Assembly (NCBI GenBank): GCA_003222675.1
Contig: QHWT01000045.1
Location: forward strand, 1 to 64,000
DNA from: Acidobacteriota bacterium
Lineage (GTDB): Bacteria; Acidobacteriota; Vicinamibacteria; Vicinamibacterales; 2-12-FULL-66-21
Direction of reading: 5' to 3'
DNA: 64,000 nt
This document shows positions 8,378 through 55,084 of the stretch, piece after piece (within the stretch, counting starts at the first letter, position 1; the number at the start of each line of letters is the position of its first letter). The translations under genes were made by a program, and so were the position numbers. The notes below the pieces were generated by a model that was given only the letters and a program-made list of their open reading frames with translations, had not been told where the DNA came from and did no database searches.

Positions 8378-8673
8378 GGCGTCCTCCGAGGCGAGCGCGC
8401 GGCGCAGATTGTAGCTGGAATCGTCGGCAACGGCGCATCCGTCTGGACGGAGTCATCGAACACCGACCGGCGGCGTTTAACCATTTCTTAACCTTTTCCC
8501 AAGGTTGCGCCGGTTCGTCCGTGGTAGTTGTCTCGGGCCTCGATTATTCCGGCACGCTCACGTGTGACCGACGGTACGAACGGATTTTTGCTCGCACCGG
8601 ATCCGAGAAGCGCCACATAGTCGGTCTGGTGCGCATTGTTCCATGGCTTCATTTCAGAAAGTGGGGGGCAGCC

Positions 8674-11600
8674 ATGTACGTGCGTCGCTGTTTCCAACTC
8701 ACCCTTGTGACCGCATGGACCATCCTGATTCCCTGTGTCTCACTCATCTTCGCTTCGGAGGGAACTGCAGCGTCGGCTCGGTCCTCAAAAACCTCCAGCG
8801 CGATGCGATCCCCTTTCAAAGTAGAACCGTTCCAGGAATCTTTCCCTGGAGCTGCAGCCGGGACGTCAGAAAATCGCGCCGCAGGGTCACGGACGCTCAT
8901 CAGTCTCCGACAGGCCCAGACCTTCACCGTCAATGACTTGAACAACGACGGGTTCCAGGACATCGTCGTTGCCGACTTCCTCTCGGATGCCTTGCTGGTA
9001 GTGCTGGGTGAGGGAGGCGGACGCTTCAGGCCAGCACTGGTCCTGCCGGCCGGGCGTGGCCCGCGATCTGTCCTGTCGCGTGACATTGACGGAGATGGCG
9101 TCACAGACCTCGTAGTGGCCAATTTCCTGTCAGGAGACGTCACGACTTTCCGGGGGAAGGGTGATGGCACCTTCCGCGACGCACACGCCATTGCCGTCGG
9201 AGCGGGTCTCACATCGCTTGCCATGGACGACCTCGATCGGGACGGCGTGGTCGATCTCGTGGCCGCGAATGTCCTTGCTGGCGACATCGTCCTCATGAAG
9301 GGGACTGGCCTCGGATCGTTCGAAGCGCCGGTGCGGGTCGCGCGTATCAAGGACGTCTCGGTCGTTGTCTCAGGCGACGTCGACGTGGACGGATATCCCG
9401 ACATCGTGGCCCTGAGCCTATCGGGCAAGCAAGCTCGCATCCTCTACTCGCTGTCGCCCGGTCAATTTTCCATCCCTATTAATAAGGAGGCGGCGGCTGT
9501 CGCCTCGTGGGCGCTCCGTAACGTCGACGCCGGTATTGCAGCCTCTGGCGGGGCTCCGGCGCGGCGCCTCAGAAAGATTGCAGGTGACGGCCAGACCGCA
9601 CATCTCACAGTTCCGTTCGAGCAACCGCTGAAAGTGGAAGTTATCGATGCGGATGGACGGCCGCGGCCCGGTGAAGAGGTTTCGTTCTCGCGCCTTCTCG
9701 GCGCTCGTCTGATGAATGATGGCGAACCGGCACGGTTGACCGACGACAGCGGGCGAGCGGCCGTTGAACTCGCGACGGGCACGCTGGCGGAAGGCCATCT
9801 CGTCGTGGGCGCCCTGAACAGTCAGGAGATCGCGGTGTTTGGCCTGACGTCGATTCTGGAGCCGGAGGAATTCGGCACGGCGATCGAGACCACCCTCCTG
9901 CGCGACGCGCGGAATCCGTTAGTGGCGATGCAGTCACGCGCCCTCATCGAGGAGGCCGTTCAGAAGCTGAAGGACGATGACGCGGCAGCGGCGCTCCGCA
10001 ATCTGTTCCGCGGGATGACGCTGCTCTCGTCGGCCATGAGTGAGGTCATTCCGAGAACAACCTCCGTCGACCTGATGCAGCGCTGGATCAATCAGGTCCT
10101 GACCGTTGGGTCGTCTCTGGTCGTGGAGAGCGACCCTCCCTTGCCGTGCGATGTGCCGGTCACGGGCACCCTTACGACCGCCACCGAGGTACAGACGTTT
10201 ACGTTTGACGTCACGATTGCACCTCAGAAGGTCCACATAAGTCTCGCGATCGAGAGTGCGAACAGCAGCTTGTTCACTCCCGGCTGGCGGCTGCTGAATC
10301 CCGCCGCAGACCCTGTTGTGTGCGATGGGATTTTTGGCTTTTTCCCGGGGGAGCTCGATTGCCGACTGGGCGCTCCGGGATCCTACACCGTGGAGGTGAT
10401 GGATATCGGAGTCAACGCTACGGGCACGTTCAGTCTGCACCTGCAGCGACTCAACGCCACTGCACCGCGTTGCGGCGGCACGACGACGTGCGACGTGGCG
10501 ATCGCAGGCCTGACTGTCGGGATTGATCGACGCGCGGACACCGACATCTACAGCGTCGCCGTGTCCACGGCGAATCAAAAGGTGCACATCAGTCTCGCGA
10601 TCGAGAGTGCGAACAGCGCCTTGTTTACGCCCGGGTGGCGGCTGCTGGATCCTGGCGGAGATCCCGTCACCTGCGAGGCGATCAGTGATTTCGCCGGCGG
10701 TGAACGCGACTGCGGACCGCTCGCGGTCGGATCGTACGCGGTAGAGGTGATGGACACCGGACTTAATGCGACCGGTACTTACAGTCTGCACCTCCAGCGG
10801 CTCAACGCGGCTGCGCCGCGCTGCGGTGGCGCGCTTCAGTGCGACGTGCCGATTAGCGGCGCGCCGGCGACGCTCGACCGACGCGCGGACACCGACATCT
10901 ACGGCGTCGCCGTGACCACGGCGAATCAGAAGGTGCACATCAGTCTCGCCATCGAGAGCGCGAGCAGCAGCTTGTTCACGCCCGGGTGGCGGCTGCTGGA
11001 TCCCGCCGGAGATCCCGTCACGTGCGAGAGGATCAGTGATTTCGCCGGCGGTGAACGGGACTGCGGACCGCTGGCAATCGGATCGTACGCGGTAGAGGTG
11101 ATGGACACCGGACTTAATGCGACCGGCACTTACAGTCTGCACCTGCAGCGGCTCAACGCCACTGCACCGCGCTGCGGTGGCACCCTTCAGTGCGACGTGC
11201 CGATTAGCGGCACGCCGGCGACGCTCGACCGACGCGCGGACACAGATATCTACAGCTTCGCCGTGTCCACGGCGAATCAGAAGGTGCACATCAGTCTCGC
11301 GATCGAGAGTGCGATCAGCGCCTTGTTTACGCCCGGGTGGCGGCTGCTGAATCCTGCCGGGGACCCCGTCACGTGCGAGAGGATCAGTGATTTCGCCCGC
11401 GGTGAACGCGACTGCGGGCCGCTCGCGGTCGGATCGTACGCGGTAGAGGTAATGGACACCGGGCTCGACAGCACGGGCACCTACAGTCTCCACCTGCAGC
11501 GGCTCAACGCCACTGCACCGCGCTGCGGTGGCACGCTTTCGTGCGACGTGCCGATTAGCGGCACGCTGGCGACACTCGACCGGCGCGCCGACACCGATAT

Positions 11601-13797: not shown

Positions 13798-13971
13798 TGA
13801 AACGATTGGGCAGCAAGCCGGCCGCCGCAGTGGTAGCTGATCGTCCTCCGAGCGGTTATTTCTTCAATAGAAAGTAGCTCGTTCGGGCTACTATTCGTTT
13901 CACTAAAACCTGTCGTTGTGCAACGGTCGGGCCCGAGACAGACCCAACCACGACTTCCAAAGGAGCCGCCG

Positions 13972-15429
13972 ATGACCAGAGATCTGCGGAGACCGTTCGC
14001 AATTACCATCTTCTTGGCCATTACCGGCTACGCGACCGCGCAGCTGCCAGCCCAGGCATCGGAGGACACTTCACCAGCAGCAACCGGCTGGAAGATCAAG
14101 TTCGATGAGAGTGGTTCGAATCCTGTGATTGTCGATGACGTAATGTACGTGGGATCGGCGGATGGCGCAGTCTATGCCCTGGATCCTAAGACTGCAGAAA
14201 CCAAGTGGCGCTTTCAGACGGGAGAGAGCCTCTCGCCCGCCACTTCCGGTCCCCAAGTTGTAACCGTGCCCCGTGGTACTAGTCTTTCCGACCAAATGAT
14301 TTCCGCGCTGGATGCCGTAGAAAAGCAGAGGAGAGAGGGAATACGAAGAGTGGACATGGCGCCCGCGGTTGAGAATGGAACGGTCTTCATCGGCGCGGGC
14401 GACAACTCGTTCTATGCCATCGACGCCGCAACTGGGAGGAAGAAATGGTCGTATGAGGCGGGCCCCGGGATGACCTCACGTAATCCAGTGCCGGCTGCGG
14501 TCCTCAAGGGCGGCACCGTGTACTTCGTAACCGAGGATGGCCTTCACGCCCTCGATGCGCTCACTGGCAAGAGGAAGTGGCTGTTTGAGACGTTGCAGGA
14601 GATACGTATCAAAGAGATGAACCTTGGAAGGAAGCGCGCTCCGGAAGGGCCGGTTCTGGGAGATGGCGTCATCTTCCTGACCGCCTGGCCCACCATCCTC
14701 TCGGAAGCGTCGCAGAAATGCTTCCTCTACGCGGTTGACCCGGCATCCGGAAAAGCAAAGTGGGTGACCAGCATGGCTGGCCGTGACATTACGGCGCCAG
14801 CGACCGCAAAGGGGCATGCGTTTTTCGCGGTCGCTGAACCCGCCCCGCTTACTTCCCCTTCCAATCGAGTAACGCTGTATGCGATCAATGTGGTCGACGG
14901 GCAGGTCAAGTGGAAGTTCGGCGCGGGCAAAGGGTACGGCACGCCCCATTTGCTCATCGCCGACAACATCATCTACTTCCGTACCGAGAAAAGCCTGTTT
15001 GCATTGGAACTGGAAACCGGACGCCAGCTTTGGAGTTTCAGCGCCGATGAAATCAGCACCGGTCTCTGGGCAGACGACCAGCACCTCTATGTGGTGACCC
15101 ACAAAGGTTCAATCATGCGGTCGAAAGACACGCTTCACGCGCTGACCCTCTCCACCGGACAGGAGAAATGGTCGCAAGGCGTGAGCGGGTCTGCGAGCGT
15201 TGCGATGATGCACGACGGAGTTGTCTATGCAGGCGGGGAGCGTCTCCACGCCTTTGATGCAGTCACGGGCAAGGAATTGTGGTCATTCAAGGGAACGGGG
15301 CGCGAGTCCGCACGGCTGATTTCTGGGGGCAGGATTTTCCTGACTTCGCCGACCATCAGCTACTTTGGCAAGAAACGGGTGGACCAGGGGTATCTCTACG
15401 CAATCGACGCAAAGACAGGCAAGCCTTAG
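13972..15429 (+). CDS. exported PQQ-type beta-propeller protein
   Basis: The ATG at 13972 has a strong AAAGGAG site, while the frame upstream to 13918 lacks one. The 485-residue product has a signal peptide (RRPFAITIFLAITGYATAQ) and about eight PQQ/quinoprotein blades, each ending in a Trp motif: GAVYALDPKTAETKWRF, SFYAIDAATGRKKWSY, LHALDALTGKRKWLFE, LFALELETGRQLWSFS, LHAFDAVTGKELWSF. There is no cytochrome c motif or kinase domain, so this is a free periplasmic propeller, comparable to BamB-like or orphan PQQ-fold proteins. Binding of PQQ itself is not shown. Confidence 0.85.
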   Translation: MTRDLRRPFAITIFLAITGYATAQLPAQASEDTSPAATGWKIKFDESGSNPVIVDDVMYVGSADGAVYALDPKTAETKWRFQTGESLSPATSGPQVVTVPRGTSLSDQMISALDAVEKQRREGIRRVDMAPAVENGTVFIGAGDNSFYAIDAATGRKKWSYEAGPGMTSRNPVPAAVLKGGTVYFVTEDGLHALDALTGKRKWLFETLQEIRIKEMNLGRKRAPEGPVLGDGVIFLTAWPTILSEASQKCFLYAVDPASGKAKWVTSMAGRDITAPATAKGHAFFAVAEPAPLTSPSNRVTLYAINVVDGQVKWKFGAGKGYGTPHLLIADNIIYFRTEKSLFALELETGRQLWSFSADEISTGLWADDQHLYVVTHKGSIMRSKDTLHALTLSTGQEKWSQGVSGSASVAMMHDGVVYAGGERLHAFDAVTGKELWSFKGTGRESARLISGGRIFLTSPTISYFGKKRVDQGYLYAIDAKTGKP

Positions 15430-20212: not shown

Positions 20213-22198
20213 ATGCTGACCAGACGCGACATGCTGAAGCTCGGGCTTGCTGGAACCGGTTATTTCATCCTTGGGCCGGATGGGAGTATTTCGTGGGCGG
20301 ATGATGACAGTCTGCCGTCCAGCCCGGCCACGACTCCTTTCCTGGATGAACTTCCACGACCTCCCGTTGTATTAGAGGTGACGGACCCTGTCGAATTGCA
20401 GAACTTTTATGACACGATGCCAGATGAATTCAGAAGGTATTGGGTCAATATCAACACGACGCTCTTTTTCAAGATCGCGGCGGAAGTGCGATATGTGAAG
20501 GTGCATACCATGCTGCCTCCGGTGGCTATCTGGGGCTACAGGGACCTCGTCGCCTTCCCGCCGGGTGTTGATCCCCCACCGTTCGCGCTCGGTCCCACTC
20601 AGGTGCAGGCTTTCGGGGAATCCAGAGGTCGCCGGGGCTTCGTCTGTCCATATACGGCCCCGCCCAATGCACCGACGCCTATTGGCGGAGGCGCAGTCGT
20701 CCGCCATATCAACTGCTTGCCAAAGGATCACCAGGGATTCGGGGTTCCTCGAGGGACCGTGCACCTTCATGGCGGCCATCACCTGGCGCGCGGAGATGGC
20801 TTCCCGGAGAACATTGAGAATCGGCCAGGAAACAAGGGAAATCATCCGATACCCGACGGATTTCCGTGTTTCGTGGTAACCGAACCGCCAGGATTCTATC
20901 CGCCGCCGGACGAACCGGTGTGCCCGACGCCCCCGACGCCGCTGACCGAGACGTGCCCGAACGGGCATTTGGTCGGCGACCGCCAAGTCTTGGACTATTT
21001 CTATCCGAGTCTCGATCCTGGCGAATTGGATTTCGCATGTGGCCGATCATTGACGCCAGGGGACCCGAGCGAAAGGCCCTCGACGCAGTGGTATCACGAC
21101 CACCTCCTGGACTTCACGGGTCCCAACGCGTACCGCGGCCTCGCGGGATTCGTTCTCTGTTTCGACGAAATCGACTCAGGCGACGAGCTCGATCCCGATC
21201 CGCGGAGCCTGAGATTGCCGAGCCCACCCTTCGATATTCCGCTCGCGATTCAGGACAAGCGCTTCGCGTTAAGCCCCGACGGCCAGACGACGTCGCTGAT
21301 CTTCAGCTCGTTCGACCACGACGGCTTTCTCGGCGACAAGTTCCTGGTGAACGGCGCGATCCAGCCGTTCCTTCGCGTCAAGCGGCGGAAGTACCGGTTC
21401 CGCTTCTTGAACGGCGGGAACGCACGAATCTATCAGCTCTTCCTGACCGACGCGATCGGCACGAAATATCCGATGGACATGATTGCCACCGAGGGTGGTC
21501 TGCTGTCAGCGCCATTCCGTGGAATCACGAGCTTCATGATAGCCATGGCGGAGCGCGTCGAAGTGGTCATCGACTTCACGAACTTCGCCGACCAGACGAA
21601 GCTGTTCATCGAAAACAGGCTTCAGCAGACCGACGGACGCAAACCGGACGGCCTGGCGAGTTCGGGGACGCAGATGCTCGAATTCATCGTCGAGGGGACC
21701 GAACCTTTTCCCGATCCGAGCCGAGTGCCGGACGTTTTACGGCCCTTCGCGGCGATCAGCCAAGCGGAAAGGGATGAAGCGTACCGTCACGTCAGGACGT
21801 TCAGGTTCGACAGAAGCCACGGCGGTTGGACCATCAATGGTGAGTTCGTGGACCTCGAGCGTCCCATCGCCCAGCCGAAACTGAATGTCCCCGAGATCTG
21901 GCGCCTCGTCAACGATTCTGGAGGATGGTGGCACCCTATCCACATCCACTCCGAATTCTTCCGGGTCCTGAGCCGGAACGGACGACAGCCGTCGATCCCG
22001 ACAGCTCCCGCGCGCGCATGGGTTCCCGGCTTCGAACGTGACGGTTATGCGAAGAAGGACACGATCCTGCTTAGAGACAACGAGAGTGTCGATGTGTTTC
22101 TCAAATTCAGGGACCACCTGGGCCCGTTCGTCTTCCATTGCCACAACATGGAGCACGAGGATATGGCTATGATGGGACGGTTCGATGTGATGCCCTGA
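20213..22198 (+). CDS. multicopper oxidase, Tat-exported (CotA/bilirubin-oxidase type), copy 1
   Basis: The ATG at 20213 follows GGGGGAGAG and opens a Tat signal (LTRRDMLKLGLAG). All four copper motifs are present in the 661 residues: HLHGGHH (184-190), WYHDH (His295/297), HPIHIH (574-579) and HCHNMEHEDMAMM, with Cys643, His648 and Met653 as type-1 ligands. The layout is that of three-domain laccase-like oxidases that couple one-electron substrate oxidation to reduction of O2 to water. The substrate is unknown; metal ions and phenols are both possible. An SCO1/SenC gene follows after 32 bases in the same direction, so the oxidase and its probable copper chaperone form an operon. Confidence 0.92.
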   Translation: MLTRRDMLKLGLAGTGYFILGPDGSISWADDDSLPSSPATTPFLDELPRPPVVLEVTDPVELQNFYDTMPDEFRRYWVNINTTLFFKIAAEVRYVKVHTMLPPVAIWGYRDLVAFPPGVDPPPFALGPTQVQAFGESRGRRGFVCPYTAPPNAPTPIGGGAVVRHINCLPKDHQGFGVPRGTVHLHGGHHLARGDGFPENIENRPGNKGNHPIPDGFPCFVVTEPPGFYPPPDEPVCPTPPTPLTETCPNGHLVGDRQVLDYFYPSLDPGELDFACGRSLTPGDPSERPSTQWYHDHLLDFTGPNAYRGLAGFVLCFDEIDSGDELDPDPRSLRLPSPPFDIPLAIQDKRFALSPDGQTTSLIFSSFDHDGFLGDKFLVNGAIQPFLRVKRRKYRFRFLNGGNARIYQLFLTDAIGTKYPMDMIATEGGLLSAPFRGITSFMIAMAERVEVVIDFTNFADQTKLFIENRLQQTDGRKPDGLASSGTQMLEFIVEGTEPFPDPSRVPDVLRPFAAISQAERDEAYRHVRTFRFDRSHGGWTINGEFVDLERPIAQPKLNVPEIWRLVNDSGGWWHPIHIHSEFFRVLSRNGRQPSIPTAPARAWVPGFERDGYAKKDTILLRDNESVDVFLKFRDHLGPFVFHCHNMEHEDMAMMGRFDVMP

Positions 22199-22230: not shown

Positions 22231-22866
22231 ATGAGTAACAGGATAACGGCAGGTGCTGCGGTTGCGATCGTGATCGTGACGTTCGCTTCGGCGGCCGTTC
22301 ACGCTTCAGATGCTCGCGCAAGTACGTCAGCGCTCGATCGGTTCTCGGCGACTACGCAGTCATCCACCACGGCGGTGGACTCCCTTCCGAATGTCATCAT
22401 TCAGACTCAGGACGGAAGGCGAGTTCGGTTCTACGACGACTTGATCAAAGGAAAGGTGGTGCTGATCAACTTCATGTTCACGAGCTGCACGACTCAGTGC
22501 CCACTTACGACGGCGAATCTCGTGAAAGTTGAGGAGGCGCTCGGTGAACGACTCGGACGCGACGTTGTGATGATTTCAGTCACGGTCGATCCGGCCGTCG
22601 ACACACCTGACGTTCTCAAGAGATACTCGCGGCGTTACAATACGAAGCCTGGTTGGCACTTCGTCACCGGCAGCCGGAAAGACATCGACCTCATTCGCCG
22701 GCAGCTCGGCGCGTTGGACAAGACCGGCGACAAGACGCAGCACACCGGTATCGTCATTTACGGAAACGAAGCGACGGGCCAGTGGGCCGCGACTCCGGCG
22801 ATGGCGCCGCCGACGGCAATCGTCAGGAGCGTGATGAGGCTCGTTCGTCGGCAAAGCAGCAATTGA
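22231..22866 (+). CDS. SCO1/SenC copper chaperone, paired with MCO copy 1
   Basis: The 211-residue product has a signal peptide (ITAGAAVAIVIVTFASAAV) and a thioredoxin-like SCO fold. The CxxxC copper/redox pair is Cys86-Cys90 (TSCTTQCPLTT) and the distal ligand is His171 (KTQHTG). FYDDLIKGKVVLINFMF is the typical strand before the motif. There is no lipobox, so it is probably periplasmic or held by an uncleaved signal. SCO proteins deliver copper to cytochrome oxidase, but here the only neighbour is a multicopper oxidase. The gene ends just before a strong hairpin. Confidence 0.9.
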   Translation: MSNRITAGAAVAIVIVTFASAAVHASDARASTSALDRFSATTQSSTTAVDSLPNVIIQTQDGRRVRFYDDLIKGKVVLINFMFTSCTTQCPLTTANLVKVEEALGERLGRDVVMISVTVDPAVDTPDVLKRYSRRYNTKPGWHFVTGSRKDIDLIRRQLGALDKTGDKTQHTGIVIYGNEATGQWAATPAMAPPTAIVRSVMRLVRRQSSN

Positions 22867-44959: not shown

Positions 44960-45898
44960 ATTCACGCCTGAACCTGTCGTGGACGGGTCTACGCGCCACA
45001 AGCACCTTGCATCAGTCCTCGCGCGACCGCCAACGCGGTGAACTCTTGGCCAAGCGGCGACGTTCGAACGTGAGCCCTGAACGCCAGTTGGGCGGACGAG
45101 GGGGGCACGGGTACTGCCATGGGTCCGTTCCTTTAGGTCGGCGGTCACGCGCAAACGCTGTCGTCTTTGCCACCTGCGCGTCTGCATCGTGCCCTGAAAA
45201 TCGCCCGAGGTTCGCCCTGTTGAACACAGTCCCGGCCGCCCCTCGCATCGCCGCCCGCCGATGGCGCACTCCCAATGTGCAATTGCGCACACAGCGCGAG
45301 CACGCGTGCGCGTATACTCCGCGAAATGTCCGATCCGGGCCAGCCATCGAATCGAGGGATCCCTCTTTTCAGCATCCGCGAGGGGCGCCCCACTCGGTCC
45401 TGTTCGAGGCCGGCTCGACTTGGGCCGCATTTAACGGGATAACGCGCTAGCCGCGGTGACGTCAGACTTCGCCAGTGAAGGCCCGCAGCCGCGATACTCG
45501 TGCGACCGACTGTCTGGGTGATCGACCGCAGTGTCGCCGAAGTCCTTCCGCGCGTCCAAGGACGACGCCGAGTCGACATGAGCACGAGGGACGTATCGCG
45601 CTTGACCGTGCAGTGATCCGCTTCGGCCTCAGATAACACGTCAGCCATCTCGGACAGGGGAGTCGTTGAGCGCCAAGTTGGCGCGTCGGCCGTTCTCGAC
45701 GTCTTCCGTAGCCAGCGGCTTCTCCGAGCATGCGCGCAAGCCCGCGTGCGCACAGTGCTCAGTGTATGCCGATATTGGCGTGATGTGTACCCCCGCGGAT
45801 GGCGCCGAGGTCCGCGACGCTCGCGATCGAGGAAGCGCGACACTGCAACGACGAGCGCTGGCGCTCAAATCTCCTGCGCGAACCATCGAGGTCTGAAC
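44960..45898. other. 940-bp stretch without a recognisable gene
   Basis: The largest frames (204, 232 and 241 residues, minus strand) are Arg-rich and carry no motif. They also overlap one another in different frames. I see no repeat, RNA or hairpin of note. It may be decayed coding DNA. Confidence 0.45.
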
Positions 45899-47020
45899 AT
45901 GCGTACTTTCATTCTTACACTGCCGCACACGTCTGATTCGCATCGCAAGCAGCACGTCACTTGGTCGTCGCAAACGCACACGCAACGCTACGTCTGTGTC
46001 GCAATCCGCGGAGCGGCGCTCGCGCTGCTCCTTCTTGCCCTCGCTGTCCCTAGCATCGCCCAGCCTGCCGCGCTGCTGATTTCGACCGCGCCAGTGGACG
46101 GCACCGTTCCGACCATTCGCAAGATTCCGCTGACAGGCGCGAATCTCGGTATCTTTGCGTCTGTCGGGCTGAACGGCGCCTTGGGGTTGGCCCTCGATCG
46201 AGCTGGCAACGTATATGCGGCCAACGTCGGCGACGGCACGATTCACAGGTTCTCCGCGACGGGCGCGGATCTCGGCGTCTTCGCCGCCGTGCAGGAACCG
46301 CTCGCTTTGACGTTTGACAGAGCCGGCAACCTGTTCGTGTCTGACATTTTCAACAATACGATTCACAAATTCTCGGAAACAGGCCAGGACCTCGGCGCGG
46401 TGACGTCGCTTCTGGGATTCGGCTGTCCGGCTGACCTCGTCGTCAATCGTTCTGGCAACCTGCTCGTGGTCGATCCCTGTGTGAGTGTGATCCGCGAGTT
46501 CTCACCGACGGGCGAGAGCCTCGGCGTCTTCGCCTCGGCGGGGCTGAGTGCTCCCTTGGGTATCGCACTCGACAACTCCGGAAACGTGTTCGTCTCCAAC
46601 ACCGCCGGGCTATTCAAAAACACCATTCACGAGTTTTCGGCGACGGGTCAGGATCTCGGTCTGTTCGCCTCGACAGGGTTGGCCTTTCCGGCCCGGCTCG
46701 CCATCGACCGGATCGGCAACGTATTCGCCGCCAACATGCAACAGCTGCCAGGCGCAGCTTCTGGCGAATTCTCGATCCGTAAATTTTCACCCGCTAAGGA
46801 CGATCTCGGCGATTTCGCGACGCTGACCGGCGTGCCTCTGGCGCTCGTAATTACCGCTCCGGCGTTTGCAGGAACGCCTGGGATGCCCAACTGTCACGGC
46901 AGGAGTATCTCCAGGTTAAACCATCAGTTCGGCAACATCCGCGCGGCGGTCTCAGCATTGGGATTGCCGAGCGTGCGTGCACTCCAGCAGGCGATTGATG
47001 TGTTTTGTGAAATTCGGTGA
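45899..47020 (+). CDS. exported NHL-type propeller with a CHG...FGNI...FC C-terminal domain
   Basis: The ATG at 45899 gives an unusually long N-region before a signal helix (GAALALLLLALAVPSIAQ). The mature protein has five or six NHL-like repeats with the pattern LALDRAGNVYAANVGDGTIH then RFSATGADLGVFA. It ends in a compact domain (CHGRSISRLNHQFGNIRAAV, LPSVRALQQAIDVFC) that recurs in the remnant at 36430. The domain's two Cys residues may form a disulfide. Role unknown; propellers of this kind are often surface exposed. Confidence 0.8.
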   Translation: MRTFILTLPHTSDSHRKQHVTWSSQTHTQRYVCVAIRGAALALLLLALAVPSIAQPAALLISTAPVDGTVPTIRKIPLTGANLGIFASVGLNGALGLALDRAGNVYAANVGDGTIHRFSATGADLGVFAAVQEPLALTFDRAGNLFVSDIFNNTIHKFSETGQDLGAVTSLLGFGCPADLVVNRSGNLLVVDPCVSVIREFSPTGESLGVFASAGLSAPLGIALDNSGNVFVSNTAGLFKNTIHEFSATGQDLGLFASTGLAFPARLAIDRIGNVFAANMQQLPGAASGEFSIRKFSPAKDDLGDFATLTGVPLALVITAPAFAGTPGMPNCHGRSISRLNHQFGNIRAAVSALGLPSVRALQQAIDVFCEIR

Positions 47021-47285: not shown

Positions 47286-49946
47286 TTATTCGTGCCTCAG
47301 GGCAATCATGGGCTGAACGCGAACGGCGCGTCTCGCGGGAACCCAGCACGCGAGCACCCCGATGGTGGTGATCAGCAGAATCACGACCGCGAACGTCAGG
47401 GGATCGTTCGGCGATGTGTTCCAGAGCTGCGCCGTCAACAGACGATTCGTGGCGAAGCTGATGGCCAGCCCGATGAGCAGGCCAGCGGCAACCAGCTGCA
47501 GGCCGAACCGCACGATCATTCGAATCACGTGCCCGGACTCTCCGCCGAGCGCCATGCGGATCGCGATCTCGCGCGTTTGTTGCGACACGGTGTAGGCCAG
47601 CACACCGTAGATACCGAGCGCCACGAGGAAAGCGCCCGTCGCAGCAAAAATGCCCAGCACGAGCAGGATGAAGCCCGGACGCGCGTAGAAATTCATCTGA
47701 ATCAGTCGTTCGAGCGTGAGCGGATCCGCGAGCGCCACCTGCGCATCCACCACCTGGATCTCACGACGGAGAGTGTTCAACGCGCGCAGCGGATCATCGG
47801 TCGTGCGCACGAGCAGCCCGACAGCGCCGGGGAGCCGCAGACTGAATGGAACCATTACTTCCGGCGCCGGGTTCTCACGCGGTCCCACGGTCGCCACATC
47901 CCGCATGATCCCTATGATCTGGAATGTGGGATCGGTGATGGGCCGGGGCAGAGTTGTCAGCCGCGGAAGCCGGATGACGCGCGCGAGAGGGTCCTCGGAT
48001 CCGAAGTATCGCCGCGCCAGCGTTTCGTTGATGACGGCAACGCGGTGCGCCTGCTCAATGTCGATCGTCGAGAGTCCGCGCCCCTTCATGATCGGAATGC
48101 CGAGCGTATCGGGGAGGCGCTCGCTTCCGAACACGATCAGGGCCGGTGAGGATGGGTCCGTTGTCACCCCGGGGATCTCGAGCGCGCTCGGAAGGCCGCC
48201 GAAGGGAGGGAAGCCGAACCCACTCACCATGGCAACGGAGACGACACCGGGCACCGTCGCCGAGCGGTCGGCGATCTGTCGGTAGAGACTTCGCTGATCG
48301 TCGGCCGACGTGCTCCGCTGTGGAGGAAGCGCCACGAAGGCGACGAGCACGTTCTTCGGATCGAACCCGAGGTCGACGCCGACGAGCTTCACGAACGTCC
48401 GCATCAACAGCCCGGCGCCGAGGAGGAGCACAATCGAGAGCGCCACTTGAGCGATCACGAGGCTGCTGCGCATGCGCGTCTGCCGGCGGCCGGCCGTCGT
48501 TCTGCCTGCGACATTCGCGCCGGTGCCGATATCGCGTCGCACGCTCTGCAGCGCGGGAAACAAGCCGAACGCAAACGTCGAGGCCGCTGCGACGATGATG
48601 GCAAACACGAGCACCGGTCGATCAAGCCTGATCTGCGTTTCCCACGGCACGCCCTGACCCGGTGGCAACAGGCGAGCGAGCGCCTGGATGCCGCCGTATG
48701 CCATCAGCGACCCCGCGATCAGGCCGCCGGCTGCAAGCAGCGCGCTTTCGACGAGCAGCTGCCGGACGATGCGGCCGCGGCTCGCGCCGATGGCAGCGCG
48801 AATCGCCATCTCGCGCTCGCGGATGGTCGCGCGCGCCAGCAGCATGTTGGCGACGTTGCAGCACGCGATCATCAGCAGCAGGCTCACCGCACCGAACATC
48901 GTGTACAGCACCGCGCGGAAGCCTCGCACGACCCAGTCGACAACCTTGATGACCTGGAAGTGGTACTGCGGTGGGTACTCGTTCGGATGCTCCCGCGCGC
49001 GGCGGGCGCCGATGACGTTCAGCTGCGCTTCCGCCTCCTTCGGCGAAACGCCAGGCCGCAGATGCGCCTGGAACGCGCGGCTCCCGCGCTGTGTCCGCGG
49101 ATCGTCACCGCGGTTGATGGCCGCGGGAAGCCACAGATCGGCAATGTTCCACTCGAACCGTGGCGGCATCACGCCGATCACCGTCCACGCCGTGCCATCG
49201 AGCACCAGCGTGCGCCCGATCACGCCGAGGTCTGCACCGAACGATCGAATCCACGCCCGGTGGCACATGACCGCGACGGGTGGCGCGCCCGGCGCGGCGT
49301 CCGAGGCGTCGAACACTCGGCCGAATAATGGCTTGACGCCCAGGAAATCGAACCCGTTCGGCGTCATCCAGGCGACATCGAGGCGCTCGGGGCCGTTCGC
49401 GCCCTGCCAGAGCATCGAGTCGCGGCTGGTCCCCACCACGTCTTCGAACACAGTGGTTTGCTCCTGATAATCCAGGAACTCCGCAGCCGGGAAGTACGGG
49501 CCGCGAACCTGCCGATCCGAGGCGTCGCGCAGGACGACGTTCACGAGCCGATCGGATCGCGAGTACGGAAACGGATCCAGCACGACGTTCCGGACGACGC
49601 TGTAGATCACGGTAACGGCGCTGATGCCGAGCGCCAGGGTGAGCGTCGCCGCGATGGTGAATCCGCGTGTCCTCGACAGCGTGCGAACGCCGTACGCGAC
49701 ATCGCGCCGCAGATCCTCTAGCCAGCGGAACGATCGGGCATCGCGCTGCAGCTCTTTGACCTGTTCGATGCCCCCGAACGAGCGTCTCGCAGCGACGCGC
49801 GCATCTTCGGGCGGTAGACCGCGGCGCTCGAATTCGCGCTGCAGCTCCCCGAGGTGGGCGTCAACCTCGTGTGCGAGCTCGCGTTCGGAGCGCCCGCGGC
49901 GGAACAGGGTCAGGAGACGCAGCAGCGTACGACGCAGGCTTCCCAT
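47286..49946 (-). CDS. ADOP-type (MacB/FtsX) permease, intact
   Basis: The 886-residue product starts at the ATG 49946 after GAGGTGAG. It has the N-terminal ADOP cap (ELAHEVDAHLGELQREFERR), then two MacB_PCD/FtsX halves: first helix GFTIAATLTLALGISAVTVI, periplasmic domain with VRNVVLDPFPYSRSDRLVN, first FtsX block (LLMIACCNVANMLLARATIR), second block (GAFLVALGIYGVLAYTVSQQ) and tail WVPARRAVRVQPMIAL. These duplicated permeases are typical of Acidobacteriota and rarely have a linked ATPase, as here. Substrate unknown. The PadR gene lies 63 bases upstream in the same direction. Confidence 0.92.
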   Translation of the reverse strand: MGSLRRTLLRLLTLFRRGRSERELAHEVDAHLGELQREFERRGLPPEDARVAARRSFGGIEQVKELQRDARSFRWLEDLRRDVAYGVRTLSRTRGFTIAATLTLALGISAVTVIYSVVRNVVLDPFPYSRSDRLVNVVLRDASDRQVRGPYFPAAEFLDYQEQTTVFEDVVGTSRDSMLWQGANGPERLDVAWMTPNGFDFLGVKPLFGRVFDASDAAPGAPPVAVMCHRAWIRSFGADLGVIGRTLVLDGTAWTVIGVMPPRFEWNIADLWLPAAINRGDDPRTQRGSRAFQAHLRPGVSPKEAEAQLNVIGARRAREHPNEYPPQYHFQVIKVVDWVVRGFRAVLYTMFGAVSLLLMIACCNVANMLLARATIREREMAIRAAIGASRGRIVRQLLVESALLAAGGLIAGSLMAYGGIQALARLLPPGQGVPWETQIRLDRPVLVFAIIVAAASTFAFGLFPALQSVRRDIGTGANVAGRTTAGRRQTRMRSSLVIAQVALSIVLLLGAGLLMRTFVKLVGVDLGFDPKNVLVAFVALPPQRSTSADDQRSLYRQIADRSATVPGVVSVAMVSGFGFPPFGGLPSALEIPGVTTDPSSPALIVFGSERLPDTLGIPIMKGRGLSTIDIEQAHRVAVINETLARRYFGSEDPLARVIRLPRLTTLPRPITDPTFQIIGIMRDVATVGPRENPAPEVMVPFSLRLPGAVGLLVRTTDDPLRALNTLRREIQVVDAQVALADPLTLERLIQMNFYARPGFILLVLGIFAATGAFLVALGIYGVLAYTVSQQTREIAIRMALGGESGHVIRMIVRFGLQLVAAGLLIGLAISFATNRLLTAQLWNTSPNDPLTFAVVILLITTIGVLACWVPARRAVRVQPMIALRHE

Positions 49947-50009
49947 GATCTCACCTCGTGGACCGACGACCGGCGCGCGATTCGCGGCCGAGCGCCGCGT
50001 GCGGGACAC

Positions 50010-50357
50010 CTACGGCTCGTGGAGTAGCAGCTTGTTCACGAAGCCTGCAAGCCGTTGCCAGCGCTCGGTCTGCCGTTCCAGCGCTCGGGCGCCCGACCGC
50101 GTGATCGAGTAGAACTTCGCCTCGCGGCCGGCCTCCGTCGTCTGCCACGCGCCTTTGATCCATCCCTTTTGCTCGAGACGGACGAGCGCTACGTACAAGG
50201 TTCCCTGGTTCAGCGGAAACGGATGGTCGGCGAGCTGATCGAGCCGAGCGGCGAGGCCGTAGGCGTGCTGCGGCCCCATGGTCGAGAGCGCGCGGAGCAC
50301 GATTAGGTCGAGGCTCCCCTGCAGCAGCTCGACGCGCGAACGATCTTCACTGGCCAT
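50010..50357 (-). CDS. PadR-family transcriptional regulator of the ADOP locus
   Basis: The 115-residue product begins MASEDRSRVELLQGSLDLIV and has the PadR winged helix (VLRALSTMGPQHAYGLAARL, QGTLYVALVRLEQKGWI, YSITRSGARALERQTERW). An upstream extension to 50609 is not part of the family. PadR regulators repress their own operon and respond to small molecules. It is followed by the permease gene, so the two form the standard ADOP module. Confidence 0.92.
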   Translation of the reverse strand: MASEDRSRVELLQGSLDLIVLRALSTMGPQHAYGLAARLDQLADHPFPLNQGTLYVALVRLEQKGWIKGAWQTTEAGREAKFYSITRSGARALERQTERWQRLAGFVNKLLLHEP

Positions 50358-50365
50358 TGCAGTGA

Positions 50366-50395
50366 AGTAGAGCGCGCCTTGCACTGGGATGTCAA
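50366..50395 (-). promoter_or_regulatory. promoter of the padR-ADOP operon, near-leaderless
   Basis: On the minus strand TTGACA (50395-50390) and TCTACT (50371-50366) are spaced by 18 bases. Transcription would start about 50360, only a few bases before the ATG at 50357, so the mRNA is nearly leaderless. No Shine-Dalgarno sequence is visible. Confidence 0.7.
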
Positions 50396-50762
50396 GTGGG
50401 GCTACCGGCAAGGTGAGCGGCGGCGGAGCCGCCTCACGTCTGGCGTTTCGCCACGGCGCCGCATGATCGCACCAGGATTTCGAGGCCTGACGGATGCGCG
50501 CGAGGCGGCACGCTCTCGTCTGAAGAATCGCGTCTGGATCGCTTGGAGCGACGGCGACGCTCACTTGATTCAAACTCCCAAGTACTAAGGTGACTCCTCG
50601 GGGTGGCACTTTGGTGCCGATCGGGCTTCGACGGCCCCGTCACCTGCGTACCATATTCAACTCGATCAAGTTTGCGGACACTCATAAGCGCCCTGCGATG
50701 GCCGACCTTCGAAGACTCCCACCTTCCAGCCATTTACTTCCGTCGCACGCGGCAGGACCATC
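50396..50762. other. divergent spacer before MCO copy 2, no recognisable gene
   Basis: Short frames only. GGCAGGACC precedes the MCO ATG but is not a strong ribosome site. No clear sigma-70 pair for the oxidase operon. Confidence 0.4.
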
Positions 50763-52706
50763 ATGTATCCGCTCAAGTTCCGTCCCGCGCCGCTGGTCGA
50801 GATCGCCCGGAAGAACAGACAAGAAATCGTCAGAGCCGGACTGACGCGTCGTGAGTTGATCAAGCTTGGCCTGCTGACAAGCAGCGGCTACTTGATCCCG
50901 ACGCGTGGGTTGAGCGCTCAGACGAGCTGTCCTGCGGGCGTGTGTCAACTCGGATGCAGTCCACCGACCCTTCCGTTCGTCGATCCGCTCCCGATTCCCC
51001 CGGTGTTGCCGGCGCGTCCGCTCTCCGACCCGGGGTTTGCGATTCCGCCCAACGCACAGCCAAGCGGACAACCGCAGGACGCGCGCAACGAGGCACACCA
51101 GTTCCGCGATCGCTTTCCCCCGCAGCAGTTCTTCATCACCCGCATGCGGCCGAACGCGAACTTCCGGTTCAGCGAGAATGCCACGAATCTGGCGCGCATT
51201 CCTCCACAGCTGATCTGGGGGTTCAACTTGGGCGGACCAGCGGCCAGCGACGTCGCGATCACGCCCGGACCCACGATCGTGAGCCGCTACGGCACACCGA
51301 TCGTCATCCGTCGGTTCAACGAGCTGGCGCCGGACGACACCGGCTTCGGCGTGCCCGAAACCTCGACACACCTGCACAACTTCCACTCAGGTCCGGATAG
51401 CGACGGCGGCCCCTGCGATCCGGTGTTCAATCGGATCGTCCGGATCGGCCAGTTCTACGACCACTTCTACACGATGGCACGCGCCGGGTTCGACACGGAT
51501 GAATTCCGCGCCACCAACGGCGACGTCCGGGAAACGCTAGGGACTCTCTGGTATCACGACCACCGCGTAGATCACACCGCCGAGAACACCTATAAGGGCC
51601 TCGTCGGATTTCATTACATCTTCAACGAGTTCGACACCGGCGACGAGAACACGGGATTCCATCTTCCGAGCTTTCCGCAGTTCGATGTCCCGTTGTTCGT
51701 GGCCGACAAGCTGTTCACACCAGAAGGAGAGATCTGTTTCGATCCGTTCGGCTTCGACGGTCTCGTGGGAGACAAGTTCGTGGTGAACGGACGCATCCAG
51801 CCGTTCTTCGAGGTGCAAAAACGGCGCTACCGCTTCCGAATCCTCGACGGCGGGCCGTCGCGTTTCTATCAGTTCTTTCTCACGAACCCGGACAATCCGA
51901 GCCAGTCAATCCCGTTCTGGCAGATTGCCAACGACGGCAATCTGCTGCCGCGGCCGATCGAGATCACGAGCACGCGAATCAGCGTCGCGGAACGGATGGA
52001 CGTCATCATCGACTTCAACAAGATCTCGGCTCGGTTCGGGCACCCAAGCCGAATCTGGCTCGAGAATCGGCTCGAGCAGGTGAATGGACGAGCGCCCACG
52101 GACAAGATCTTGCCGGCCGGCAACCCCGCGAACGTCGTGCTGGAGTTCCAGCTGGTCGGACCGGATAACGTGCCGGACCCCAGCTTCGATCCCGAACCGG
52201 TCTCGTTCCCACGCGTGCCCTGCAGCCCCAACGACTGTGTGTTCGCGCCGATCTGCCTGCCGCGGCTGCCGAGCGACAACGCTGCCGCGCCGACCGATCG
52301 AATCCGATTGACGCGCTCATTCCGGTTCGAACGCGGCAACGGTCAGTGGCAGATCAACGGCCAGTTCATGGACTGCACGCGCTTCCGCTTCACCGTCCAA
52401 CGCAACACCGCGGAACGGTGGATCCTGCGGAACAATTCCGGCGGGTGGCAGCACCCGATCCACATCCACCTGGAGGAATTCCGGATCATCCGGCGGAACG
52501 GCCGGTTGATTCAATGCGGCGACGTGGAATTCTCCCGGAAGGACGTGGTGCGTCTTGGATTCAACGAGGAGATTGAGATCGTGATGCGGTTCCGGGACTT
52601 CCGCGGCGGCTACCCGATGCACTGCCACAACACCGTTCACGAAGATCATCAAATGATGCTGCTCTGGCAGGTGCAGGACATTGGCGACAACAACCCCGAG
52701 CCGTAG
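50763..52706 (+). CDS. multicopper oxidase, Tat-exported, copy 2
   Basis: The 647-residue product has a long N-region before the Tat motif (LTRRELIKLGLLTSSGYLI). Copper motifs are HLHNFH (203-208, with Asn where copy 1 has Gly), WYHDH (His265/267), HPIHIH (564-569) and HCHNTVHEDHQMM, giving Cys621, His626 and Met631 as type-1 ligands. It has several extra Cys residues (CPAGVCQLGC, CSPNDCVFAPIC) that may form disulfides. Copy 1 shares the fold and many segments (GDKFxVNGxIQPFxxVxxR) but they are clearly diverged paralogues. An SCO1 gene follows 17 bases downstream. Confidence 0.92.
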   Translation: MYPLKFRPAPLVEIARKNRQEIVRAGLTRRELIKLGLLTSSGYLIPTRGLSAQTSCPAGVCQLGCSPPTLPFVDPLPIPPVLPARPLSDPGFAIPPNAQPSGQPQDARNEAHQFRDRFPPQQFFITRMRPNANFRFSENATNLARIPPQLIWGFNLGGPAASDVAITPGPTIVSRYGTPIVIRRFNELAPDDTGFGVPETSTHLHNFHSGPDSDGGPCDPVFNRIVRIGQFYDHFYTMARAGFDTDEFRATNGDVRETLGTLWYHDHRVDHTAENTYKGLVGFHYIFNEFDTGDENTGFHLPSFPQFDVPLFVADKLFTPEGEICFDPFGFDGLVGDKFVVNGRIQPFFEVQKRRYRFRILDGGPSRFYQFFLTNPDNPSQSIPFWQIANDGNLLPRPIEITSTRISVAERMDVIIDFNKISARFGHPSRIWLENRLEQVNGRAPTDKILPAGNPANVVLEFQLVGPDNVPDPSFDPEPVSFPRVPCSPNDCVFAPICLPRLPSDNAAAPTDRIRLTRSFRFERGNGQWQINGQFMDCTRFRFTVQRNTAERWILRNNSGGWQHPIHIHLEEFRIIRRNGRLIQCGDVEFSRKDVVRLGFNEEIEIVMRFRDFRGGYPMHCHNTVHEDHQMMLLWQVQDIGDNNPEP

Positions 52707-52723
52707 CTAAAGGAGGAACGGAG

Positions 52724-53365
52724 ATGGCCGTCACAAGGCGACACTGGTTGGCCGCGGTGGGACTGGCGCCGATGATGGGAGCGCTGGTCGCGCGTGCCCA
52801 AACGCCGGGTGCGGAGATCGCAGTCCCTCGGCTCTCCGGACGCGAGCGGATCCGTCGGTATCACCTGCCCAACGTCGAGTTGATCGCGCACACGGGACAG
52901 CACGTGCGCTTCTACGATGATCTCATCAAAGACAAGAAGGTGATCATTAATTTCATGTACGCCAAGTGCGAGGGCATCTGCGTGCCCGTGACGACGAATC
53001 TCGTGCGCGTACAGAAACTCCTTGGCGATCGTGTGGGACGAGATATCTTCATGTACTCGATAACACTAAAGCCGGCGGACGACTCTGTGGAGAGTCTTCG
53101 CGAGTACGCCGAGCAGCACCACGTCGGTCCCGGTTGGCTGTTTCTAACCGGTGCGCCACCGGACATCGAGCAGCTACGCCGCGCGCTGGGCTTTACGTAT
53201 GCCGATCTGGCAGAAGACGCGGACACCTCGAACCACATCGGCATGCTGCGGTACGGCGTGGAGCCCCTGACACGGTGGGCTGCGTGTCCCGGCATGGCCA
53301 ACCCCGAACATATCGTGCGATCGATCCTGTGGGACCTGGGGATAGACGAAGGAGAACCGCAATGA
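52724..53365 (+). CDS. SCO1/SenC copper chaperone, paired with MCO copy 2
   Basis: AAAGGAGGAA precedes the ATG. The 213-residue product has a Tat-like start (TRRHWLAAVGLAPMMGALV) and the SCO fold with Cys82-Cys86 (KCEGICVP) and His171 (SNHIGM). The FYDDLIKDKKVIINFMY segment is shared with the copy at 22231. The copper-site residues occupy the same positions as in that copy, but the CxxxC interior differs (EGI against TTQ). Its stop overlaps the next ATG (ATGA), so the three genes form one operon. Likely role: copper delivery to the MCO. Confidence 0.92.
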   Translation: MAVTRRHWLAAVGLAPMMGALVARAQTPGAEIAVPRLSGRERIRRYHLPNVELIAHTGQHVRFYDDLIKDKKVIINFMYAKCEGICVPVTTNLVRVQKLLGDRVGRDIFMYSITLKPADDSVESLREYAEQHHVGPGWLFLTGAPPDIEQLRRALGFTYADLAEDADTSNHIGMLRYGVEPLTRWAACPGMANPEHIVRSILWDLGIDEGEPQ

Positions 53366-54312
53366 GGACCATGGCGGTGGTGAGAGTTGGATTCGCCACG
53401 TTCTGGTTGACCGCGCTCGCGCTTGCGCCGGTGGATGCGCAGCTGGGCAAGCTGACCGAGATTTCGCTCGCGGACAATCTGACGGCTTCCCAGGCCGGCG
53501 GCGGCGGCGGTCCAGAAGCCGTCGCGTCCGATGGCACCTACATCTGGGTCGCCGAGCAGTTCGCCGATAGTGTCACGCGCCTCGATCGCTTGACGGGCCT
53601 GCCGCTCGGCACCTTCGCTGTGGGGAAACGGCCGGTCGCCCTCCTCGCCGTCGGGTTGACGCTCTGGGTAGCGAACCTCGAGAGCGACACGCTGACGAAG
53701 CTGCGCACGAGTGACGGCGCCGTACTGGGAACGTTCCGCGTGGGCGATGGTTCCGGCGGGCTCGCGTTCGACGGCGTCAACCTGTGGGTCGCACAGCGGA
53801 CCGGCAACACCGTGAGCCAGGTGTCACTGGATGGCGCCGTGCTCGCGACATTCCGTACCGGCCGGCGTCCGCTGAACCTCACGTATGACGGCGTTAACAT
53901 CTGGGTTGTGAACAATCTCGAGAACACGGTCATCAAGCTCCGCCCGAGCGACGGCGCGATCGTTGGACGAATCCGCACCGGCAACGGGCCCTTCGGGATC
54001 CTGTATGACGGCGCGGCGATTTGGGTCACGAATTTCTTCAGCCGCACCGTTATGAAGGTGCGCCCGGGCGACGGCGCGCTGTTGGGGACGTTTTCAGTGG
54101 GAGACGGCGCGGCGGGGCTTGCAGCCGACGGCGGGAGCATCTGGGTCGCCAATAACGGCAGCAGCACGGTAACGCGGTTGGATCGGGCCACGGGTGCCGT
54201 CATTGGCACCTATGCGTCGGGGCCAGGTCCGTTCGGCATCGCGTTCGATGGCCAGAACATGTGGGTCGCTAACTTTGCTGGCAGCTCCATATCCACGACA
54301 TTGTCGCGGTAG
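53362..54312 (+). CDS. secreted YVTN/Vgb-like beta-propeller, third gene of the MCO operon
   Basis: GGAG lies eight bases before the ATG at 53362, which overlaps the SCO1 stop by four bases. The 316-residue product has a signal peptide (VGFATFWLTALALAPVDA) and six propeller repeats of about 42 residues with the core DGxxIWVAN and a TxLRxSDGAVLGTF strand (for example GVNLWVAQRTGNTVSQV, AAIWVTNFFSRTVMKVR). No haem or metal motif is visible. Its translational coupling to the SCO gene suggests that it works with the oxidase, perhaps as a docking or substrate protein. Confidence 0.88.
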   Translation: MRTMAVVRVGFATFWLTALALAPVDAQLGKLTEISLADNLTASQAGGGGGPEAVASDGTYIWVAEQFADSVTRLDRLTGLPLGTFAVGKRPVALLAVGLTLWVANLESDTLTKLRTSDGAVLGTFRVGDGSGGLAFDGVNLWVAQRTGNTVSQVSLDGAVLATFRTGRRPLNLTYDGVNIWVVNNLENTVIKLRPSDGAIVGRIRTGNGPFGILYDGAAIWVTNFFSRTVMKVRPGDGALLGTFSVGDGAAGLAADGGSIWVANNGSSTVTRLDRATGAVIGTYASGPGPFGIAFDGQNMWVANFAGSSISTTLSR

Positions 54313-54412: not shown

Positions 54413-55084
54413 TCAGACGAGACCGTGGTGCTTCGCAAACAACGCGAGCTCGAGCCTCGTCGATGCGCCGACCTTGTCGTAGATCTTCGTGAGATGGTGC
54501 TTGACGGTTTCTTCAGAAATCCCGAGCTGCTGCGCGATCTCTTTATTAGAGAGCCCACCGGTAAGGGCTATCACGATGTCGAACTCGCGCTCGGTCAGCC
54601 CGAAAGGGCGCTGCGCGGCTGGCGCGTCGGGTAACGGAGACGCCTCGCGAAATGCCGCGATGAGATCACTGACCGCAGTGCGATCCACCCAGTACTCGCC
54701 GCGCATCGCAACGTGAATGCTCTTGAAAAGCAGCTCGGGGGCCGCGCCCTTCAGCACCACGCCATGAGCCCCAAGCTGCAGCGCGTTCAACACCTCCGTG
54801 CGGTCGATCGATCCGGTCACGAGAATCGTCTTGACGTGGAGGCGATTCCCTTTCAGGGCGCGAAGGGTGTCGAGTCCACCCATCCGCGGCATCGCGACAT
54901 CGAGCAGCAGAACATCTGGATTCAACTGCTTCGCCAGATCGATCGTTTGGGCTCCGTCTGCCGCGTAGCCAACAACTTCGAAGCCCGGCTCTGTCTCGAG
55001 AAGTACTCGCAATCCCTCTCGGAACAGTCGCTCGTCATCGGCAATCAGCAGTCGGATGCGTTCGCGAGTCTTAGGTCTGGACAC
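54413..55084 (-). CDS. NarL/FixJ-type response regulator
   Basis: The 223-residue product has a receiver domain (Asp16/Asp17, phosphoacceptor Asp62 in LLLDVAMPRMGG, Lys112) and a LuxR-type helix-turn-helix at about 163-220 (LTEREFDIVIALTGGLSNKE, IAQQLGISEETVKHHLTKIY). No histidine kinase is adjacent; the region upstream is debris. It is convergent with the MCO operon, so a link to that operon is possible but not shown. Confidence 0.9.
   Translation of the reverse strand: MSRPKTRERIRLLIADDERLFREGLRVLLETEPGFEVVGYAADGAQTIDLAKQLNPDVLLLDVAMPRMGGLDTLRALKGNRLHVKTILVTGSIDRTEVLNALQLGAHGVVLKGAAPELLFKSIHVAMRGEYWVDRTAVSDLIAAFREASPLPDAPAAQRPFGLTEREFDIVIALTGGLSNKEIAQQLGISEETVKHHLTKIYDKVGASTRLELALFAKHHGLV

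Follow-up and report, generated by a model that had tools for sequence, protein, structure and literature searches.

A multicopper oxidase, an SCO1/SenC protein and a secreted YVTN-type beta-propeller encoded in one cassette of Acidobacteriota

What is the role of a secreted beta-propeller encoded directly behind the genes of a multicopper oxidase (MCO) and an SCO1/SenC protein? The question is raised by the window analysed here, a whole 64-kb stretch of DNA from a soil bacterium of the Acidobacteriota, in which an earlier note had described this arrangement as a second MCO-SCO cassette extended by an unexplained third component.

The cassette and its three products

The three genes occupy positions 50763-54312 of the plus strand and are isolated, with minus-strand genes on both flanks. 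Upstream these encode a PadR-like regulator (50010-50609) and an ABC-permease-like protein (47286-50009), both named from their own sequences alone, and downstream a LuxR-type response regulator (54413-55084). A sigma-70 promoter scan for the cassette, which was uninformative, found none. The gene order given in the earlier note, an MCO paralogue, an SCO gene and a secreted propeller with its start codon overlapping the stop codon of SCO, can be read directly from the sequence and its open reading frames. The oxidase MCO2 (50763..52706, 647 aa) is followed by an AGGAGG ribosome-binding site (52711..52716) and by SCO2 (52724..53365, 213 aa). The propeller gene (53362..54312, 316 aa) shares the ATGA at 53362..53365 with SCO2, its ATG being 53362-53364 and the SCO2 TGA 53363-53365, and AGGAGA at 53350..53355, within the 3' end of SCO2, is a possible ribosome-binding site for it. 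The overlap likely reflects translational coupling of the two genes. Two other propeller proteins of the window, one NHL/ScyF-like (45746-47020) and one PQQ-type (13918-15429), are apparently unrelated to the cassette.

MCO2 matches the Cu-oxidase_2 profile of Pfam above the cut-off (1.1e-17) and is a multicopper oxidase with the type 1 Cys/His and type 2/3 His motifs. All 12 copper ligands are in place and the four copper motifs are intact (H203xH205, H265xH267, H564xxH567xH569 and H620-C621-H622-xxx-H626-xxxx-M631). Its leader is twin-arginine-like (LTRRELIKLGLL), and bilirubin oxidase and CotA are the nearest solved structures. An assignment as CueO copper-efflux oxidase was rejected, the NCBIfam CueO profile giving 122.7 bits versus the required 525. 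A search for plasmid-borne copies retrieved only MCO relatives of 39% identity or less, some of them with an SCO gene, and no close propeller.

SCO2 is an SCO1/SenC protein with a thioredoxin-type domain (SCO1-SenC, 1e-14, Pfam), in which the metal-site residues C82-xxx-C86 and the distal H171 are present behind the leader MAVTRRHWLAAVGL. The first MCO-SCO copy of the window, also on the plus strand, consists of a long-branch paralogue from the family of MCO2 (20213..22198) and an SCO gene (22231..22866), with no propeller after it. If the ATG at 22231 is taken as the start, the His of this SCO protein likewise falls at residue 171, as the earlier note had pointed out. The equal numbering is a coincidence, because the CxxxC motif lies at 82-86 in SCO2 and at 86-90 in copy 1.

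The third product is a YVTN/NHL-type propeller with repeats of about 40 residues (YVTN repeat TIGR02276, 8.4e-13, NCBIfam). Its AlphaFold2 model (pLDDT 89.8) has seven four-stranded blades, and the first strand closes the ring. A Sec-type leader is followed by a low-confidence linker and one propeller of about 290 residues; an anchor, a sorting signal or a PKD-type extra domain were not seen in the protein. Among solved structures the propeller is closest to the YVTN surface-layer protein 1l0q, to virginiamycin B (Vgb) lyase and to hydrazine synthase beta. As the window propeller contains neither His nor Cys, a role as copper enzyme or as Vgb lyase is improbable. Both assignments were rejected, as was membership in the SBP56 methanethiol oxidases, which have conserved copper-binding His residues.

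Pairing of MCO and SCO genes and recurrence of the propeller

MCO loci were drawn from 60 related genomes and from one genome per species. In 95 of the 103 family members examined an SCO gene follows the MCO gene, compared to two of 40 control loci of other or distant MCOs, one of the two being a family member; the flanks of the controls extended to no more than about 1.5 kb. The adjacency was not selected for, since nearly all loci had been chosen by MCO similarity. The earlier note had argued for a functional pairing from two independent MCO-SCO pairs. This argument is weak, since all the pairs belong to a single gene family, and the count was too low as well: the home genome, with five MCO and six SCO genes, holds four pairs, which take up four genes of each kind. 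The functional pairing itself is supported by gene order, and better than by two copies, because SCO adjoins MCO in so large a part of the family. Against a dedicated chaperone counts that, to our knowledge, CueO-type oxidases do not require an SCO protein.

Two of the pairs in the home genome stand in tandem on contig 135 (L031, 4903-12707), and in both the SCO protein is fused to cytochrome c and carries a DUF3347-like tail that stays under the Pfam cut-off. An MCO followed by an SCO-cytochrome c fusion is also present in L033 and L035-L038, and the tail (YCPM...YWLQ...NPYYGK) occurs on some of the fusions after MCO genes.

Counting the window, nine instances of the propeller were found, eight as full MCO-SCO-propeller cassettes and one as an SCO-propeller pair at a contig end. 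A repeat-profile search placed propellers directly after SCO genes in L045, L049, L050 and L054, and the genome harbouring L045 and L050 has a third one after an SCO gene at a contig end. The hosts are Acidobacteriota and one member of the Planctomycetota (L054). If full-length matches are defined by E<1e-100, all nine lie directly after an SCO gene; weaker matches (E 1e-82 to 1e-36) occur in other contexts and were excluded from the count. Of 396 genomes sampled across the phylum, four (home genome, G083, G296 and G322) gave a full-length match to the profile, each within an MCO-SCO-propeller cassette, and these four all belong to the nine which encode an MCO2-type oxidase (P=1.2e-7). The 4-nt overlap of SCO and propeller genes is found in six of nine instances (window, L049, L050, L054 with GTGA, L143 and L192), while the three remaining junctions have gaps of 3, 21 and 46 nt. 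The MCO copper ligands and the SCO Cys pair and His are kept in the window and the seven other full trios, the SCO protein of L145 having CxxxxC and not CxxxC. At L192 (2926-5517, G437 contig 202) the SCO-propeller pair at the contig start is closely followed, on its downstream side, by another MCO-SCO pair, a more distant one.

The claim of a third component is supported by a gene order conserved in eight further instances, and the comparison across Acidobacteriota did not turn up the situation that would have spoken against it, a propeller absent from all related cassettes. Close MCO-SCO cassettes without a propeller are numerous (e.g. L040, L043, L044), so the MCO family does not generally need one. 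In twelve genomes with such close cassettes no close propeller was found elsewhere, and the closest cassette of the same order (L003) has no propeller frame within the 500 nt from the SCO gene to the contig end. Because orthologous cassettes occur elsewhere, the arrangement, as judged from gene order, is far beyond chance, and because the trio recurs in other Acidobacteriota and in one member of the Planctomycetota, a genuine partnership of propeller and oxidase is probable. A limited literature search found no published account of the MCO-SCO-propeller arrangement in Acidobacteriota.

Related oxidase clusters and possible exchange of the third gene

The MCO family search also retrieved a locus of Iodidimonas sp. 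Q-1 (L114) with about 35% identity, which places the iodide oxidase IoxA, by sequence, in the family of MCO2. In the iox cluster (ioxABCDEF) of Iodidimonas sp. Q-1 and Roseovarius the published order is ioxA-ioxB(SCO)-ioxC, and both IoxA and IoxC are present in the purified enzyme (PMC9415286). The window cassette shares with it a same-family MCO beside an SCO gene and a secreted third protein. However, this third protein is a propeller rather than a homologue of IoxC, the additional SCO and cytochrome genes that follow in iox are missing, SCO2 has the Cys pair which the first SCO (IoxB position) lacks, and MCO2 falls outside the IoxC-bearing clade in a tree of 97 MCOs. The idea that IoxC is a hidden propeller was dismissed, its model being mixed alpha/beta (low confidence, pLDDT 65.6); because this model is not a propeller, the slot seems analogous and not homologous. 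SCO proteins without CxxxC at the IoxB position were found in seven loci (L114, L079, L093, L089, L102, L110, L117), and the next SCO in iox-type clusters, at the IoxD position, retains the motif. The IoxB-position SCO of these clusters may have a structural role.

In Pseudomonas putida GB-1 the mnxG operon comprises genes for an MCO, a YVTN propeller, two SCO proteins, a cytochrome-c protein and SurA, and mcoA is followed by an SCO gene (PMC11409713). Compared by this published description, the mnxG operon and the window cassette both combine an MCO, SCO1/SenC and a 40-residue-repeat YVTN propeller in one operon, but in mnxG the propeller precedes the two SCO genes, followed by cytochrome and SurA genes, whereas in the window it comes after the SCO gene. 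A YVTN propeller and SCO genes beside an MCO are therefore already known, which gives the third component, called "unexplained" in the earlier note, a precedent. What the Acidobacteriota and one member of the Planctomycetota add is a variant of the oxidase clusters known from iodide and manganese oxidisers.

Other operons are more remote. The mtoX-SCO1/senC-mauG operon of the SBP56 methanethiol oxidase also couples a copper enzyme with an SCO gene, but MtoX itself binds copper, probably by four conserved His residues (PMC5739008), while in the window the propeller has no His, the copper enzyme is a separate MCO and mauG is absent. MCO and SCO genes are found together also in clusters of Fe(II) oxidisers and Geobacter (PMC5566968). 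The cutFOG operon of Rhodobacter capsulatus resembles the cassette in that an MCO operon includes a protein needed by that MCO, namely CutF, which is required for MCO activity; it differs in that no propeller is described (PMC8456105). As far as we know, CutF is not an SCO protein.

In the quick unrooted tree of the 97 MCOs the eight propeller cassettes require five changes. Seven of the eight fall into one supported group of 22 MCOs, which also takes in propeller-free and "T41" cassettes, and the cassette of the Planctomycetota lies outside. This fits a third gene that was repeatedly lost or exchanged; gain and loss are not separable because the tree is unrooted. MCO and propeller divergence are modestly correlated (Mantel r=0.44, p=0.025), MCO and SCO divergence more clearly (r=0.75, p=0.0007), and the pairs closest by MCO (window/L145, L045/L144, L050/L143) are also closest or near-closest by propeller.

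Other proteins occupy the third slot in related loci. A secreted family, "T41", whose tested members have no Pfam match, is found there in Acidobacteriota MCO-SCO cassettes (L041, 8552-9355; L046, L047, L186 and L187), and a protein of this type is encoded upstream of the MCO gene in Planctomycetota (L072, L075, L084). The third proteins of G407 and of the Blastocatellia locus L041 are identical. In L082 a PF10282 lactonase-type propeller (8571-9749) follows the MCO-SCO pair after 173 nt, possibly an independent recruitment of a propeller. One could imagine that the IoxA-like family is modular, with a fixed MCO-SCO core and a third secreted subunit swapped between lineages (propeller, IoxC, "T41" and others), the YVTN propeller being obligate and setting substrate or location, but we regard this as tentative and rather doubtful.

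Possible role of the propeller

Because IoxA and IoxC are purified together and the mnxG operon provides a precedent, we favour the reading that the three genes form one extracytoplasmic oxidase system in which an exported MCO is served by a dedicated SCO protein as its copper chaperone and by the propeller as a subunit without catalytic function, and we give it about an even chance. MCO2 would leave the cytoplasm by the Tat route and oxidise a small external substrate with O2. SCO2 would supply or reduce copper, or keep the Cys ligand reduced, while MCO2 matures. The propeller would be synthesised in step with SCO2 by means of the ATGA overlap and bind mature MCO2, which it could position or stabilise, or to which it could present the substrate. 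It would thereby take the slot held by IoxC in the iodide oxidase, in analogy to the YVTN propeller of the mnxG operon.

Instead of a subunit, the propeller might be a cell-surface or matrix protein which displays the oxidase as a docking scaffold and is not stoichiometric, or which is itself oxidised or cross-linked as a substrate. The archaeal surface-layer protein 1l0q is its best match in both sequence and fold, and the Sec-type leader with the linker behind it would suit such a location, but the single propeller of some 290 residues shows none of the anchoring or sorting features noted above, and we consider a surface protein rather unlikely. That the cassette encodes a manganese(II) oxidase, with propeller and SCO in the same role as in Pseudomonas, is suggested by the mnxG and mcoA loci of GB-1 and by relatives in Leptothrix (L044) and Sphaerotilus (L043). 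The differing gene order and the absence of cytochrome and SurA genes argue against it, and MnxG is a much larger protein than MCO2, which makes this function unlikely.

Still less probable is a separate enzyme, a lactonase or lyase, which would use the oxidase's substrate or product. The propeller of L082 would be in line with this, as would a weak match to Vgb lyase (PF24684), but the latter reaches 28.3 bits against a curated cut-off of 50. Vgb lyase uses a catalytic His (2z2p is the inactive H270A mutant), which the window copy lacks along with Cys, and the invariant positions among the propellers are mostly residues of the repeat structure. A chance neighbour, for which one could invoke the other YVTN/NHL propellers of the genome (six matches) and of the window, is refuted by the recurrence of the propeller in nine instances from two phyla, always in one slot and mostly with the ATGA overlap, and deserves hardly any credence.

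The preferred reading, an exported oxidase with its chaperone and a propeller subunit, ties a dedicated SCO protein to a family of exported copper oxidases that is widespread but for the most part uncharacterised, and points to SCO proteins as maturation factors for multicopper oxidases, beyond cytochrome oxidase. With only three genes, the cassette offers a small, testable system in which to study the function of YVTN propellers that accompany copper oxidases, a question the mnxG operon had already raised.
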